Below are positions 56,242 through 61,962 of a stretch of 62,349 nt of DNA, in pieces. The translations under genes and the position numbers were made by a program. Source of the DNA: a virus; the IMG/VR virus record IMGVR_UViG_3300028388_005459, positions 1 to 62,349 of that record; one strand, given 5' to 3'. The notes below the pieces were generated by a model, which saw only the letters and a program-made list of their open reading frames with translations, was not told the DNA's origin and did no database searches. How positions within the stretch are numbered: position 1 is the first letter of the stretch; each line of letters starts with the position of its first letter.

Positions 56242-56853
56242 TTAGGCAATTTTGCTTATCTGCCCAACCTTTTCAACTCGAATTGTGTTGTCTGCATTTT
56301 CCAAAAGCGACTCGCTATGGGTGACCATTATGACCTGGATGCCTAGCTCTTGACTTATTTCCTTGACCATTGCAGACGCGAGCGGTTGTAGATTCGCAGA
56401 AAGAAAGCGGAAGGGTTCGTCAAGGACGATTATTGGGCGAGTCTTTGGCCCTGAAAGATTCCAGAGAGCAACTCTTGCCGCAAAGGCGGCAATGTCGACA
56501 GCTCCTCCCCCAGAGGATGCCATAGGATCGAGCTTTTTCCCATTTGGATGAATAAACCAAATATCTGCCTCCGTTTTCCCTCGTCTTGTCACAAAATCAA
56601 TCTCGAATTCGTAGGCATCATTCTCGAAGACAATGCCAAGCGCAGTAGTGACAAGCGCATTGACGTTTATCTTGAATTGGTTTTGGGTTTCTTGCGCGAC
56701 TTTTTGAATAATGATCTGCGCTTTTGTGGTATAATCGATCTCGGTTTCAAGCTCCGCAATCGTTTCTTCGTGCCGGAAAATTTGATCGTCAAGCGCGTTT
56801 CGTCGCCCAATCATTTGGTCCAGTTTTGTTCGCGCGTTTCTAATGGGGAACAT
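56242..56853 (-). CDS. SbcC/Rad50-like ATPase, C-terminal half
   Basis: The 203-residue protein begins with a helical coil (LDQMIGRRNALDDQIFRHEETIAELETEID), then the ABC C-terminal lobe: SSGGGAVDIAAFAARVALW (signature), PIIVLDEPFRFLS (Walker B with catalytic Glu) and VIMVTHSESLLENAD (H-loop). It lacks Walker A, which lies in the separate gene at 59104-60018. The two would have to assemble into one ATPase head for the SbcD-like nuclease. Confidence 0.82.
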   Translation of the reverse strand: MFPIRNARTKLDQMIGRRNALDDQIFRHEETIAELETEIDYTTKAQIIIQKVAQETQNQFKINVNALVTTALGIVFENDAYEFEIDFVTRRGKTEADIWFIHPNGKKLDPMASSGGGAVDIAAFAARVALWNLSGPKTRPIIVLDEPFRFLSANLQPLASAMVKEISQELGIQVIMVTHSESLLENADNTIRVEKVGQISKIA

Positions 56854-57112
56854 TTGTGGATGCGCTTTCGACGCTTTCGTATTTTTTGAGCCGCCCCTTC
56901 AATTCTTGATTTTCCGCAGCGAGCCCGATGGTGAGGTAAATGGTATGCTCAAACGAGTCAAAAAACCCCAAAATGTTTTGAAGAAAAGCGAGCATAGGCG
57001 GGTTGTTTCGATTTTTTTGGGTGGCGCGCTCGATCTTTTTCTTTGCCGTCGAAATGTCGACGCGAAGGTTACGGAGCCGGTCTTGCAGCGCTTTATCCGC
57101 AGGGTTCATCAT
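56840..57112 (-). CDS. coiled-coil protein beside split SbcC, 90 aa
   Basis: The protein has LQDRLRNLRVDISTAKKKIERATQKN, then a short hydrophobic-turn region and QELKGRLKKYE. Coupled by overlap to the C-terminal SbcC half (14 nt) and to the next coil upstream (4 nt), it may supply arm segments of the split ATPase. Confidence 0.5.
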   Translation of the reverse strand: MMNPADKALQDRLRNLRVDISTAKKKIERATQKNRNNPPMLAFLQNILGFFDSFEHTIYLTIGLAAENQELKGRLKKYESVESASTNVPH

Positions 57113-57366
57113 TGGCCTCCTATTTGGGGGAAAGTCTTTTGAAAAGTCTCCATTGATTTTTTGAGCTTTTTTCGCTTTCTTGCAAGCTCTGCCTCAAGTT
57201 TTGCCACCATATCTTCGGCGGTTTTTGATCCTTTTGTTTTTTCCATAAGCATCTCGTTAATATTCTCGAGCCGCCCATCAAGTTGATCGATTTCTTTTTG
57301 TTTGGAGGTAATTTGTTTTTGGATTCGCGCTACCTTCTGGACCAAATTCGTGTTGTCGCTTTTCAT
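57109..57366 (-). CDS. coiled-coil protein, 85 aa
   Basis: This is nearly one continuous coiled coil (VARIQKQITSKQKEIDQLDGRLENINEML, then AEDMVAKLEAELARKRKKLKKSMETF). It starts after AAGGAGTTGAGCGAAG and overlaps the next gene by 4 nt. Composition and location suggest that it belongs to the SbcC-like complex. Confidence 0.55.
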   Translation of the reverse strand: MKSDNTNLVQKVARIQKQITSKQKEIDQLDGRLENINEMLMEKTKGSKTAEDMVAKLEAELARKRKKLKKSMETFQKTFPQIGGQ

Positions 57367-57496
57367 CTTCGCTCAACTCCTTCCACGCTGGGCACCCTCG
57401 GCATTGCTTATACCTCCAGCGTCGTATATTGATAACACTATGCCAGCATTCGCGCTCGGGTTCGCGCGGGCAAGATATTTGTTTATCCTCAGTCAA
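57278..57496 (-). CDS. Cys-rich small protein, TTG start, 72 aa
   Basis: The frame contains CPREPERECWHSVINIRRWRYKQCRGCPAWKEL, a natural-looking Cys pattern, then a helical SEDEKRQHEF. A TTG at 57496 overlaps the stop of the upstream gene by 8 nt. It overlaps the coiled-coil gene by 89 nt in another frame. It may instead be joined to the upstream protein by a frameshift. Confidence 0.4.
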   Translation of the reverse strand: MTEDKQISCPREPERECWHSVINIRRWRYKQCRGCPAWKELSEDEKRQHEFGPEGSANPKTNYLQTKRNRST

Positions 57497-57689
57497 AATC
57501 AATTGAGAATGCGCAACAGATGCTAAAAATCGCGCAATTTTCCGTGCTGCATTCTCGCTCAATTGCCTGGCATTTATATATGGTGTCAACGTCGAAGTCG
57601 TCTGGAAGGGGAGTTTTGTAATCTTCATATCGCCAAGGGCAATTTTCCATAAACTCTTCAAAAACCGTCATAAAATCTTTTTCTGCCAT
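57489..57689 (-). CDS. Cys-containing small protein, 66 aa
   Basis: The ATG at 57689 follows AAGGAGAAAAAAC. The protein has MAEKDFMTVFEEFMENCPWRYEDYK and, near its end, CQAIERECSTENCAIFSICC. The Cys pattern continues in the next frame (57278-57496), as if the two were one Cys-rich domain. A promoter lies 24 bp upstream. Confidence 0.5.
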   Translation of the reverse strand: MAEKDFMTVFEEFMENCPWRYEDYKTPLPDDFDVDTIYKCQAIERECSTENCAIFSICCAFSIDFD

Positions 57690-57712
57690 TGTTTTTTCTC
57701 CTTTCGTCTTTC

Positions 57713-57741
57713 GTTATAGCCAGAAATGCGAGAATCAAAAA
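57713..57741 (-). promoter_or_regulatory. early promoter, TGGCTATAAC core
   Basis: TATAAC at 57713-57718 with CTGGC before it, 24 bp upstream of the start at 57689. The -35 is weak (TTTTTG at 17 bp). The 57720-57897 stretch upstream has no convincing gene. Confidence 0.5.
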
Positions 57742-57897
57742 GGGTGGCCGCTCTCGATCTTTTGAAGATCAAGACTTGCGTCTTTTGGCAACCTGCATTG
57801 AGGGGGCAGCTTTTCGCTTCACGACACAACACCACAACGAGTTGGAGCCAGAAAAGCTGCGATTGCAATTACCCAAAAGAACGGCCATAAATCAAGC

Positions 57898-58197
57898 TCA
57901 GCTTGCTGAGCGAGTTTCCGCTTTGTTTTCTCTGTCAAGATATGATTGCCAGAGGTCCTCTCCTTCTGACAATGCGTTTTCATCTTTTTGGAAGGCAAGG
58001 ATTCCGATCTTGATTCGCGTCCCATTGAGGCTGGGATTTTCGTTGTCGTCAAGCATTAATGCCGGCTCTGATTGAAGCTCAACAAAGCCTAGCCTAAAAG
58101 AGGGTTCTTCGGTTAAAATACTCCCGATAAGTTCGATGAGGCTTGTTGCCTCTTTTGGTGTTAATTCTGTTTTGTAAAAAGGTGCAGGCAACAGCAT
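57898..58197 (-). CDS. hypothetical protein, 99 aa
   Basis: The protein has YKTELTPKEATSLIELIGSILTEEPSFRLGFVEL, then LDDNENPSLNGTRIKIGILAF and a helical acidic end. It starts after GGAGGTGGAAG, 10 nt downstream of the SbcD-like gene. No family is recognised. Confidence 0.5.
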   Translation of the reverse strand: MLLPAPFYKTELTPKEATSLIELIGSILTEEPSFRLGFVELQSEPALMLDDNENPSLNGTRIKIGILAFQKDENALSEGEDLWQSYLDRENKAETRSAS

Positions 58198-58207
58198 CTT
58201 CCACCTC

Positions 58208-59107
58208 CTAGAGTTCTGCTTGCTCTACTGCTTGCCAGATTTTGTTGGCGATTGGCTTTTCAATCTTGTTCGTCGTAATATGCGCTTCAAGATTGCGTTC
58301 AAAAGAGATTTTCCCTCCTCGCCCTTTTTTGATTTGATCGATATAAGCAGCGAATTTTTCCTTTTTCTGTTTTTCCTTTTCCTCCTCCTCTTTCGAGACA
58401 AAGACGCTTTCTGAAGGAGCAATTTTGAGGAAAATTCTTTTGTATTCCTTCGTCTTTGTATTATAGCAGACAACGGAGGGCTTGTGATCTCTTTGATCGA
58501 TTCTCATCCGCATAAGGCTCCCGGGGCTGATAAGCGTTGTTTTGCCAATCTTTTTTTCAAACGATTCATGGTTGTCACCCACCACAATCAGTTCATATCC
58601 TCTATTTTTTTGAATAAATGAACGCGCAAGACTCGCGCCTTTCATGTCTGTTTTTTCCGCGGTCACAAGCCGGTGGCAGACGAGAATTGAACTTGAGGAG
58701 TTCTTGGGAAAATCTTCTCCATAGTCGACGAAATCAATCCCGATTTTTTGAAAATGCGCGCGCGCGGTCTCACTTCCATGAACGCGTCTTGCTGCTGACA
58801 AAACCCCCAAGGGAGAGTCCTCCCAATTTGACGCGTTATTTCCTGGCAAATCGTGTTGCCCGGCGATAGAATAGACCCTGACTTCTGGGTATTCAAAATT
58901 CAAGATATAGAGCACGTTTCTTACAAGCCAATGTCTTGGCGCATCAGAATGAAAAAAGTCGCCTGCCACAATCAAAGGCGCGCTTTTTTCTTGACAAAGG
59001 TCAAGAATTTGAGAAACCTTGCTCCATTGCGCACGTAAATAATCGTCAATGCGCTTTCGTGGCGCGCTTTGTCGAATATGCAAATCAGCGGCGAAAACGA
59101 TATTCAT
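58208..59107 (-). CDS. SbcD/Mre11-like nuclease
   Basis: The 299-residue calcineurin-like phosphoesterase has FAADLHIRQ (metal Asp-His), LIVAGDFFHSD, AGQHDLPGNN and LVVGDNHE and ISPGSLMRM motifs of the SbcD/Mre11 family. It should process ends together with the split SbcC ATPase. The gene overlaps the N-terminal SbcC half by 4 nt, so they are co-translated. Confidence 0.88.
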   Translation of the reverse strand: MNIVFAADLHIRQSAPRKRIDDYLRAQWSKVSQILDLCQEKSAPLIVAGDFFHSDAPRHWLVRNVLYILNFEYPEVRVYSIAGQHDLPGNNASNWEDSPLGVLSAARRVHGSETARAHFQKIGIDFVDYGEDFPKNSSSSILVCHRLVTAEKTDMKGASLARSFIQKNRGYELIVVGDNHESFEKKIGKTTLISPGSLMRMRIDQRDHKPSVVCYNTKTKEYKRIFLKIAPSESVFVSKEEEEKEKQKKEKFAAYIDQIKKGRGGKISFERNLEAHITTNKIEKPIANKIWQAVEQAEL

Positions 59108-60018
59108 TTTTTTATTCCTTGCCCGCAGAGGGGACAGATGTTTGGCATCGTCTTTTTTAAGGTCTCTTCAAGGTCGACGCGCTCCTCTACAAGCGCTTCC
59201 CTCTGCTGCCTCAGGTCTGCGCTCTTGTCGATCAAAGACGATAGCTCGTCAAGGCCTTTCTCGAGATTTTCGATTTCCTTGATCTGGTTTTCGATGGTGT
59301 TGAGCGCGCTTTTCGCATTCGTCAAATCATCTTGGTCAAGTTGCTCTCTTTTCTCCAGCAGCGCTTGCTTATGGTCAAGCAACCCTTGCAGTTCGCTTTG
59401 TTGAGATTCAAGCGCCCTTATTTCTCGGTCGAGATTTTCGATGGCACTAAACGCGCCCTCTGCCTCGTCAAGATATTTAAGCTCGTTCCTTTCCTCTTTG
59501 AGCTCGTCAAGGCTTTCTTTTTTGTCCATGAGCTTTGATTTTAATCTTCTCGAAGCTCGGGAAATATTTGTCAGTGAGCTATCGGCTTTGTCGAGATTCG
59601 CAGCCTCATTTATTTCTTTGGCTGCGGCCGGAGGGCTCAGGCTGACGAGGAAAGGAGAGTCGAATTGAAATTGGAAATTGATTGAGTTTAGGTTAACGAA
59701 CTTTTCAACGTCGGCGGGTATATTCGCGCCCTTCCAACTCTTTTCTCCCTCTTCCGTTTTCAAGGAAAATTGATTAACTTTTCCTTTCTCTTTTGTAACG
59801 ACTCCATCATCAAATTCGATGGTTATTTTCGATTGTTTTTCGCGAGCGTGAATATAAGCGTCTCCACTCGGGCGCCCGAATTGAATCAGTCTGAGCGCTT
59901 TTAGTATCGAGCTTTTGCCAGAATCACTCGCTCCGACAATCGCGTTTACGCCCGGGCCCAATTCAATGCTCGAATTAACATGGCTTTCAAACCCTTGGAG
60001 ATGAATTGTCCTGATCAT
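59104..60018 (-). CDS. SbcC/Rad50-like ATPase, N-terminal half
   Basis: The 304-residue protein begins with IHLQGFESHVNSSIELGPGVNAIVGASDSGKSS (Walker A), continues with FDSPFLVSLSPP (Q-loop region) and a long coiled coil, and stops in NICPLCGQGIKK, the CxxC zinc hook. Normal SbcC would go on through the second arm and C-terminal lobe. Those parts are missing here and the C-lobe is coded at 56242-56853. It overlaps the membrane protein upstream by 4 nt. Confidence 0.85.
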   Translation of the reverse strand: MIRTIHLQGFESHVNSSIELGPGVNAIVGASDSGKSSILKALRLIQFGRPSGDAYIHAREKQSKITIEFDDGVVTKEKGKVNQFSLKTEEGEKSWKGANIPADVEKFVNLNSINFQFQFDSPFLVSLSPPAAAKEINEAANLDKADSSLTNISRASRRLKSKLMDKKESLDELKEERNELKYLDEAEGAFSAIENLDREIRALESQQSELQGLLDHKQALLEKREQLDQDDLTNAKSALNTIENQIKEIENLEKGLDELSSLIDKSADLRQQREALVEERVDLEETLKKTMPNICPLCGQGIKK

Positions 60019-60176
60019 TTTTTATCAATCTCGACAAGCGACCACAAGGAAATCGCGACAATAGAAATCCCCGCTAAATTGAGGTATGGGAAAAGAGATC
60101 CATTGCTTATCGAGATCGCAAGACCCAGCGAGATCAAGCCCCCGATTGAAAGGTATCTTATTCGTCGTCCCTGCAT
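60015..60176 (-). CDS. small membrane protein, two helices, 53 aa
   Basis: The ATG at 60176 follows TGGAGGAAAT, and TGA overlaps the next ATG. Two hydrophobic segments (LSIGGLISLGLAISIS and LNLAGISIVAISLWSLV) are separated by a short loop. It lies between nuclease and SbcC-like genes. Function is unknown, and the gene is too short for usual cut-offs. Confidence 0.55.
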   Translation of the reverse strand: MQGRRIRYLSIGGLISLGLAISISNGSLFPYLNLAGISIVAISLWSLVEIDKK

Positions 60177-60640
60177 ATTTCCTCCATTTTTTCGTCAATG
60201 ACTTCCTGAACTGTCCCTTGAAATTCATGCGCTCGTGCGCCACCTAACGCGATATCGTAAATGGCGAAAAAAATTTCAGCTTCGAGCAGCACGAATCTTG
60301 ATTTGAATCTTTTGGTTTTTAAGAATACAAGCCAAAATGGAAAGCGACTTTTCTTGGCGTTGTCTCTTGCTTGACGTATCGCAGCTTGCCAACCAATATG
60401 CTCCCCGCTCTTGCATTCGATCCCAAATGGGAAGGCCTCTCGCGCCGCTCCGCGCAGAATAATGTCCACGCCCGTCTGCGCTCCGGGACGAGATTCAATA
60501 TCCTCATCCTTGCCACAAGAGATCCCGGTGATTTGGGATATTCTCTGCGCCGTCCATTGCTGAAGCTCCCTTCCTTTTGTTTTCGCAGAGGCAACAGAGA
60601 TACGCTGGCGCGCTCGTTTTTTCCCGTCGTTTCTCTGCAT
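60158..60640 (-). CDS. PD-(D/E)XK nuclease, resolvase-like
   Basis: The 160-residue protein has KGRELQQWTAQRISQITG, then IESRPGAQTGVDIILRG and FGIECKSGEHIGWQAAIRQA, giving the E...D...ExK pattern of PD-(D/E)XK or VRR-NUC-like Holliday-junction nucleases. The start at 60640 follows AAAGG, 2 nt after the RecA stop. It probably resolves recombination intermediates. Confidence 0.72.
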   Translation of the reverse strand: MQRNDGKKRARQRISVASAKTKGRELQQWTAQRISQITGISCGKDEDIESRPGAQTGVDIILRGAAREAFPFGIECKSGEHIGWQAAIRQARDNAKKSRFPFWLVFLKTKRFKSRFVLLEAEIFFAIYDIALGGARAHEFQGTVQEVIDEKMEEICRDDE

Positions 60641-60641
60641 G

Positions 60642-61715
60642 CTAAAACCTTTTTTTCCTGCGGGGTTTAAAGGCAAGCTCGATCTCTTCCCAAAGGTCAA
60701 TGACTGTTTCTCGGAGATCGCTTTCTAAATCATTTTTTTCGACAGTCTCGATTGCCTTAGATAGCGTCCCGCCTAGCTTGTCGTGCCCAAGAGCAAAGCC
60801 TCCAGTCAAGCGCTTGAGGAACTTCAGATTCTCCGAAATGTCGTCAACGCCGTAATCAAAGCGAATAGAGACGGGCGCCTCACGGTAAGGCTTCCCAACG
60901 GATGATTTTACCACCTCAATTTCAAATTCCGTGCCAACTGTTTTCTTTACTGTATGTCCGCGAATCGTTTTTTCCTCTTGTTTCTTTTTCATCCAGTTGA
61001 TTTCGAGCCGCAAACTGAATTGATGCAGCGCAGCAGTAGAGGTCCCCGCCGCCTTCGTCTTTTTCGCCCACGGAAGAGTCGTCATATTTGCTCGTATCTG
61101 GTTCGAACAGACAGCGAGAATGGATTCAGATCGTATCAGCGGCGCGGTCCGGCGTATCTGCTCCGTGAAAACTGCGGCGCGTCTCGCGCCAGAATAGCCG
61201 CCTTCTGTATCGGGCTCGTCGAGGCTGGCAAGAGAGTCGATCAGCGCGACGCGGAAAGGGGCGTCTTCTCTTTTCCATCCCTCTCTTAAGTGCTTGAAAG
61301 AGTCGAAAATTGAATTGGTTGATTTTACGGGGTTCTGAGGGTATTCAACTCCTTTGTCTTTATGCGGGATCTTGAATCCAAAAGTCTTGGCGAATGGGGG
61401 GTCAAGTCGCCATTCTGTATCATTATACCAGACTTCAGCGTTTTCTCGCTGCGCTTGTCCTGCGATTTGCAGTAGCAAGACTGTTTTGCCTGCGCCCGGA
61501 GGCCCGAATATTTCTGCCATGATCCCCATCGGGAGACCGCCGCCCCGAATTCTTTCTCCGGAGATTGCGAGATCGAGCAACGTGGAGCCGGTAGACATTA
61601 CATAAGAAAAATCTCCATCGTATTGGATTTGCGTCTCTTCCTCTGTCCATTTTTCAAGTTGTTTGATGCTTGACTTCTCGCTTTGCGCGGGCTTTTTGCT
61701 ATCTCCTCTTTTCAT
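60642..61715 (-). CDS. RecA/UvsX-like recombinase
   Basis: The 357-residue recombinase has STLLDLAISGERIRGGGLPMG, Walker A FGPPGAGKTVLL, VWYNDTEWRLD, ALIDSLASLDEPDTEGGYS (Walker B) and AVCSNQIRANMTTLPWAKKTKAAG for loop 2. It catalyses strand exchange with the UvsY-like mediator. The start at 61715 follows AAAGGG. An upstream start at 61745 has a weak site. Confidence 0.88.
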   Translation of the reverse strand: MKRGDSKKPAQSEKSSIKQLEKWTEEETQIQYDGDFSYVMSTGSTLLDLAISGERIRGGGLPMGIMAEIFGPPGAGKTVLLLQIAGQAQRENAEVWYNDTEWRLDPPFAKTFGFKIPHKDKGVEYPQNPVKSTNSIFDSFKHLREGWKREDAPFRVALIDSLASLDEPDTEGGYSGARRAAVFTEQIRRTAPLIRSESILAVCSNQIRANMTTLPWAKKTKAAGTSTAALHQFSLRLEINWMKKKQEEKTIRGHTVKKTVGTEFEIEVVKSSVGKPYREAPVSIRFDYGVDDISENLKFLKRLTGGFALGHDKLGGTLSKAIETVEKNDLESDLRETVIDLWEEIELAFKPRRKKRF

Positions 61716-61962
61716 TCTTGACCCTTTCTGCCTGCCATCTTTCAAGCAATCTGAGCGCCTGTTCGTCTCGCTCTCGTAGGCCTTTGAGCGCGACGAGCCA
61801 GCGCTTGTGATCGATATAATATGGAGAGGTTAACCCAGTCCCCGCCATCTTTCTGCCCAATCGATATTTTTTTGACCAGGCCAGAACAGTCTGCCGAGTC
61901 ATGGGGAACCCCCACGACTCGGCAATTTCCACGGCCTCTTTGGTCGTGATAAGACGGTCCAT
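61699..61962 (-). CDS. MerR/excisionase-like HTH protein, 87 aa
   Basis: The protein has LITTKEAVEIAESWGFPMTRQTVLAWSKKYRLGRKMAG, the winged-helix pattern of MerR/excisionase-type DNA-binding domains, and a helical basic C-terminus. The start at 61962 overlaps the stop of the ssDNA-binding protein (TGATG). It may regulate the early block. No integrase is present for an excisionase role. Confidence 0.65.
   Translation of the reverse strand: MDRLITTKEAVEIAESWGFPMTRQTVLAWSKKYRLGRKMAGTGLTSPYYIDHKRWLVALKGLRERDEQALRLLERWQAERVKNEKRR

Follow-up and report, generated by a model that had tools for sequence, protein, structure and literature searches.

A phage SbcC/Rad50 encoded in two halves, with a repeat-built arm and a conserved companion protein

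Introduction

Rad50 and other SMC-like proteins usually consist of one polypeptide, and their two arms must match in length. Cellular Rad50-Mre11/SbcCD, as in Pyrococcus furiosus and Escherichia coli, combines an ATPase head of characteristic motifs and fold with a CxxC zinc hook and an Mre11-type partner nuclease. Phage T4 encodes its own SbcC/SbcD pair, gp46/gp47, which processes DNA ends for recombination and recombination-dependent replication. Here we describe a related system in IMG/VR virus record IMGVR_UViG_3300028388_005459 (positions 1 to 62,349; this whole stretch of 62,349 nucleotides is called the window). In the window, SbcC/Rad50 is divided between two genes, N (front half) and C (back half). 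Between them lie D, a nuclease gene, and S, a gene for a small helical hairpin.

The phage system resembles cellular Rad50-Mre11/SbcCD in its head motifs and predicted head fold, its CxxC hook and its partner nuclease. In contrast to the cellular complex, its Rad50 is two genes, broken directly after the hook. The descending arm is cut to about one 45-residue helix, and the ascending arm is made of 47-residue repeats. The phage version also adds S, a GGG signature and, in most D proteins, GDxH for GHxH. T4 gp46 gives a weak match to the N profile (8.9e-5). Unlike the split phage Rad50, gp46 is a single chain with both arms and a mid-chain CxxC (residue 288 of 560); it lacks the 47-residue repeat, and neither of its neighbours (46.1, 46.2) is S. 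A review of jumbo phages treats the two partners in its passages on SbcC and SbcD and mentions no split there (PMC7824862).

Results

N (59104-60018, minus strand) encodes 304 amino acids with a Walker A motif (GASDSGKS, residues 29-36), a Q-loop, the N-lobe, an arm and a C-terminal zinc-hook CxxC. The hook motif CPLC (residues 295-298; 59125-59136, minus strand) lies 10 residues before the stop, and the protein ends in CPLCGQGIKK. C (56242-56853, minus strand) encodes 203 amino acids with an arm helix of ~45 residues, a degenerate signature (SSGGGAVD), Walker B (IIVLDEP, to residue 147), a D-loop and an H-loop (TH, residues 178-179). N matched PF13476 (8e-15) and PHROG 16465 (8e-42), and C matched PHROG 15167 (4.5e-32). 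The SMC-like head motifs (Walker A, signature, Walker B, H-loop) are all present, divided between the two proteins. These matches bear out the initial annotation, which had proposed from the sequence that SbcC/Rad50 is split into N- and C-terminal genes with Walker A, one arm and a terminal CxxC in the first and the signature, Walker B and H-loop in the second. The signature is GGGxxD rather than LSGGE, as is usual for the C family.

We assessed how far this arrangement is conserved. IMG/VR searches with C returned 10 relatives for the single protein and 453 for a profile, and 80 loci of the 453 were retrieved; a scan of IMG/VR with the single N sequence found no relatives. ORFs (open reading frames) were called in 81 distinct loci and scored with profiles of N, D, S and C. 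The gene order was N-D-S-C in 68/81 loci and N-S-C-D in 2/81 (Bacillus phage vB_BboS-125 and locus L031), so the same split, which the initial annotation had proposed seeking in related phages, was found in 70/81. Two further loci had the order N-D-C and the remainder were mostly cut at contig ends; one fragment (L088) carried C without an identifiable partner. The two lobes were encoded by separate genes, not in one polypeptide, in 70/70 complete loci. Walker A was present in 68/68 complete N proteins and in zero C proteins, and CxxC stood 6-26 residues before the N stop in 66/68 complete loci. Because this position is conserved, the break point always falls directly after the predicted zinc-binding hook. 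The distances of N, D, S and C were correlated across loci (Mantel r 0.66-0.85).

Some sequence variants were seen among these loci. Two N genes (L005 4841-5905 and L052 4325-5392) have hooks with longer spacing instead of CxxC (CPIHKC, CPFYNVIC). The C proteins of L055, L064 and L088 have SSGFGVVD or SSGYGAVD in the signature, compared with SSGGGxVD.

Few cultured phages carry the module: a tblastn search with C across 50,697 records matched vB_BboS-125 (two records), Magritte, Tunturi_5 and Mvi-JY20. In Microcystis phage Mvi-JY20, N-D-S-C lies at 87.2-90.1 kb with all four genes annotated as hypothetical. PHROG 16465 ("exonuclease") and PHROG 15167 ("ATPase"), as well as vB_BboS-125 gp32 and gp35, match the N and C halves. 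The two PHROGs are catalogued as separate families, and the N-C pairing, S and the D gene of vB_BboS-125 are unrecorded. That D gene (L001 9250-10230; ~22.4-23.4 kb of the record) is intact, but the public record carries no annotation for it. Two neighbouring accessions of the BFVD library look like the C half (A0A516LLJ2, 193 amino acids) and the N half (A0A516LLJ5, 338 amino acids). Overall, the split SbcC/Rad50 with D is a widespread feature of a large group of mostly uncultivated phages.

The halves are unlinked in some genomes. In Magritte, whose genome is circularly permuted (PMC11663251), N is at 93.8 kb, D at 119.7 kb, S at 127.2 kb and C at 0.3 kb; the order is kept, spread over ~40 kb. 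In Tunturiibacter phage Tunturi_5, the plus strand carries C (19 kb) and the minus strand carries N (127 kb) and D (125 kb). Because the genes are tens of kb apart in both genomes, the halves must work in trans, and the separate conservation of unlinked partners suggests a complex assembled in trans.

We used AlphaFold to model N, S and C of one locus jointly (L026 1027-4443). The three were read in one frame with stops replaced by glycine and the out-of-frame D serving as a long linker, and the input alignment held natural rows from 92 other sequences. Confidence by pLDDT (predicted local distance difference test) was mostly 92-98 in both head lobes, 80-90 in most of S and below 50 in most of the linker. 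The N and C lobes of this model together take an ABC-type head fold; they superposed on the Rad50 head 3qkt_B over 298/319 residues (2.8 Å, Z 28.3) and on 4ncj_A over 291/311 residues (2.8 Å). Solved Rad50 heads with separate N and C chains exist (1f2t A/B, 1ii8 A/B, 3qkr), so a two-chain head is physically workable. These have separate chains as here, but are laboratory constructs of a natural single chain. The initial annotation had suggested a head formed in trans. With the split conserved in 70 loci, unlinked halves in some genomes and a joint model like a Rad50 head, it is well supported that N and C would form one Rad50-type head in trans.

Family profiles matched the Rad50-Mre11 system in each part. 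The best solved-structure match was Rad50 3aux for the profile of 70 N sequences (2.2e-15) and Rad50 3qkr_B for that of 54 C sequences (1.1e-15), and the D family profile matched Mre11 1ii7 (1.2e-12). D itself (58208-59107, minus strand, 299 amino acids) matched calcineurin-like phosphoesterases (PF00149, 3.2e-8) and is longer than the nuclease core; its overlap with N is ATGA. The metal motifs were conserved among 76 D proteins (DxH 70/76, GD 74/76, G[NQ]HD 73/76, G[DH]xH 74/76). The last motif was GDxH in 56/76 and GHxH in 18/76. GDxH is an unusual swap of metal ligand for Mre11. These data indicate a system that is a variant by architecture, though homologous to Rad50/SbcC by sequence and modelled fold.

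S (57109-57366, minus strand) encodes 85 amino acids. It was assigned to its family by matches to the S genes of L015 (3.8e-14) and L019 (1.8e-12), and its best single-sequence matches among all ORFs of all loci were the S genes of L015, L019 and L061. In most loci S is ~75-86 residues long, with the pattern LLxLKxxIExAK...LxG...L...LK...gCxs.eEA..L in an alignment of 71 sequences. Both AlphaFold models, the joint model and a second one of the N arm with S, predict two helices of ~32-40 residues joined by a four-residue turn. Searches with S against Pfam, PHROG and PDB gave no convincing relative, only weak matches of coiled-coil type. T4 46.1 and 46.2 were rejected as S on comparison, and descent of S from a piece of the N arm found no support (hhalign probability 14.6%). 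S is an undescribed protein family and a near-constant companion of N, D and C.

The initial annotation had placed SbcD and two short coiled-coil proteins between the halves, and had read the small proteins as arm segments. SbcD was confirmed. The stretch between D and C holds four short ORFs instead of two (57898-58197, 57489-57689, 57109-57366 and 56840-57112), and only S is widely conserved. The ORF at 56840-57112 (minus strand) overlaps both S and C; no relatives were found among the ORFs of all loci. It is private to the window phage and probably not a core part, and we rejected it as a second arm piece on that ground. Two others, 57898-58197 and 57489-57689, recur outside the window only in L015; the latter encodes a cysteine-rich protein of 66 residues (8.9e-24 to L015). 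The proposal of small arm proteins stands in so far as S is conserved and predicted to be a hairpin; the other small protein is private, and S is not simply the missing descending arm because its length is constant while the N arm varies by 47-residue units.

The arm of N in the window is the short form (residues 146-294; 59137-59583, minus strand), with the canonical first helix and two 47-residue repeats. Arm lengths across N proteins are quantised at ~147 residues (13 proteins, including the window), ~194 (53), ~241 (3) and 298 (vB_BboS-125), a step of ~47, and the repeat copy number is 2-5 between phages. Self-similarity averaged over 70 N sequences peaked at lag 47 (z 28.8) and lag 94 (14.3) and was negative at the heptad lags 42 and 49; lag 47 was the top lag in 40/70 single sequences. 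As controls, an SMC arm gave heptad multiples and T4 gp46 gave nothing strong. The hydrophobic profiles of the units correlated at 0.76-0.90, and units within one protein were 19% identical, compared with 8.5% when rotated. The lengths of S and C were independent of N length (Spearman −0.13 and 0.04). This periodicity indicates that the N arm is not a heptad-periodic coiled coil and is built of tandem, predicted helical 47-residue repeats.

We considered an antiparallel zigzag of 47-residue helices and disfavoured it: gain or loss of one unit would move the hook from the tip to the head or back, and a continuous 102-residue helix crosses two units of the distal arm in the second model. For both reasons the N arm is probably an extended, kinked rod. 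Foldseek found no match to this model of arm and S in PDB, and VIA gave two weak rows only (Z 5.1). This model gave pLDDT 95-98 to S and also to the arm segment that directly precedes the hook, which suggests contact there. The arms appear to consist of a helical ascending part in N and a descending part of about one helix in C, where S may fill in.

The genes run on the minus strand in the order RecA/UvsX-like, RusA-like, a 53-residue ORF, N, D, the four short ORFs and C. The RecA/UvsX-like recombinase (60642-61745, minus strand; PF00154, 1.7e-21) is upstream of N in the same direction. The RusA/Holliday-resolvase-like gene (60158-60700, minus strand) lies between it and N, and the 53-residue ORF, apparently membrane-spanning (60015-60176, minus strand), overlaps the N start. 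Other proteins of the window (DNA polymerase, clamp, helicase, terminase, head, tape-measure) are those of a tailed phage. A RecA-like gene was found 0.4-4.2 kb upstream of N in 61/67 loci with enough flank, a neighbourhood that is the usual setting of phage recombination.

Discussion

We consider it likely that these genes encode a permanently split phage SbcCD (Rad50-Mre11) that works in trans and has S as one of its subunits. Sequence evidence covers the split, the place of the hook, the repeat, the conserved partners and the gene neighbourhood, and models predict the head in trans and the hairpin form of S; from these we infer zinc dimerisation, S binding to the arm and function. N would give the N-lobe, which contains Walker A, as well as the ascending arm and the zinc hook at its end; C would add a single arm helix together with the signature, Walker B and H-loop. 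Together they would make one ATPase head; two heads would sandwich ATP, D would bind the heads, and two hooks would share a zinc ion, as in Rad50-Mre11. Past its first helix the arm would extend as a rod of 47-residue units, and the count of units would determine how long it is. The S hairpin may pack on this arm and replace the helical mass lost with the descending arm. By homology with SbcCD and T4 gp46/47, the most likely role of the complex is to process DNA ends in recombination and recombination-dependent replication, resecting or clipping them together with the neighbouring RecA/UvsX-like recombinase.

Several observations weigh against this explanation. Binding, ATPase and nuclease activities are predictions from sequence and model. 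The L026 model treated N, S and C as a single artificial chain with out-of-frame joins, and neither coordinates nor the error matrix were read. Shared inheritance would also yield correlated N, D, S and C distances. The N of Microbacterium phage Magritte (gene 155, L002 6001-7053) is without CxxC, which points to possible loss or replacement of the hook. No S was detected close to C in L055 or in the fragment L064, yet L055 has an S elsewhere in the same genome (1e-14). The placement of S is also in conflict: model confidence points to the distal arm, and partial distance correlation points, weakly, to the proximal helix. We put the chances that S packs on the arm at about even.

A somewhat unlikely alternative keeps S off the arm as a chaperone, regulatory or DNA-binding hairpin, and pairs the single N helices with the arm of the partner protomer. 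The undetectable similarity of S to N arms is consistent with this, and one hydrophobic stripe per N helix would suit N-N pairing. Against it, genomes with scattered genes still keep S alongside N, D and C, and the confidence of S climbs when it is modelled with the N arm.

We regard as unlikely a modular arm in which several S hairpins tile N, one per 47-residue unit, in three-helix bundles. Repeat number would then tune length, and S would be a generic, interchangeable clamp. The steps in N length at constant S and C lengths argue for such tiling, as does the hydrophobic pattern common to the units; the S helices would fit one unit, and the free arm of C is about one unit long. However, each model contained one S only, and distance correlations gave no coevolution signal specific to the repeat units.

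Phage genomes in decay often contain split genes, but the idea that N and C are remnants of a single SbcC, fragmented by frameshift, insertion or assembly error and lacking a joint function, is already refuted and retains almost no probability: the same break after the hook, intact motifs and the same partners recur in 70 distinct loci. The position of D between the halves and the recurrence of the arrangement in dozens of independent contigs rule out a frameshift, which the initial annotation had named as the finding that would overturn the split. Gene halves can be set apart by split inteins, but rejoining by protein trans-splicing or ribosomal frameshifting is extremely unlikely and was rejected by geometry, since N ends too soon after CxxC for an intein half and the halves either flank D, are tens of kb from each other or are encoded on opposite strands.

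We conclude that a Rad50-Mre11 split by nature, with a repeat-built arm and a further conserved protein as its probable subunit, is real and widespread in uncultivated phages. We found no description of a naturally split SbcC/Rad50, of S or of the 47-residue repeat in the literature searched, which was screened mostly by title and abstract and included few subscription journals. The matched arms of single-chain Rad50 and SMC-like proteins make the arm hard to dissect. A natural split would show that genes can specify the head, the arm and the hook of Rad50 separately, and arms that differ by whole 47-residue units are a natural ruler for the role of arm length in DNA tethering. If the arm were modular, its length would evolve by repeat addition in one gene only and be completed by separate copies of S. 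The system also adds S as a newly named family and points to a possible role for hundreds of phage genes that are at present labelled hypothetical.

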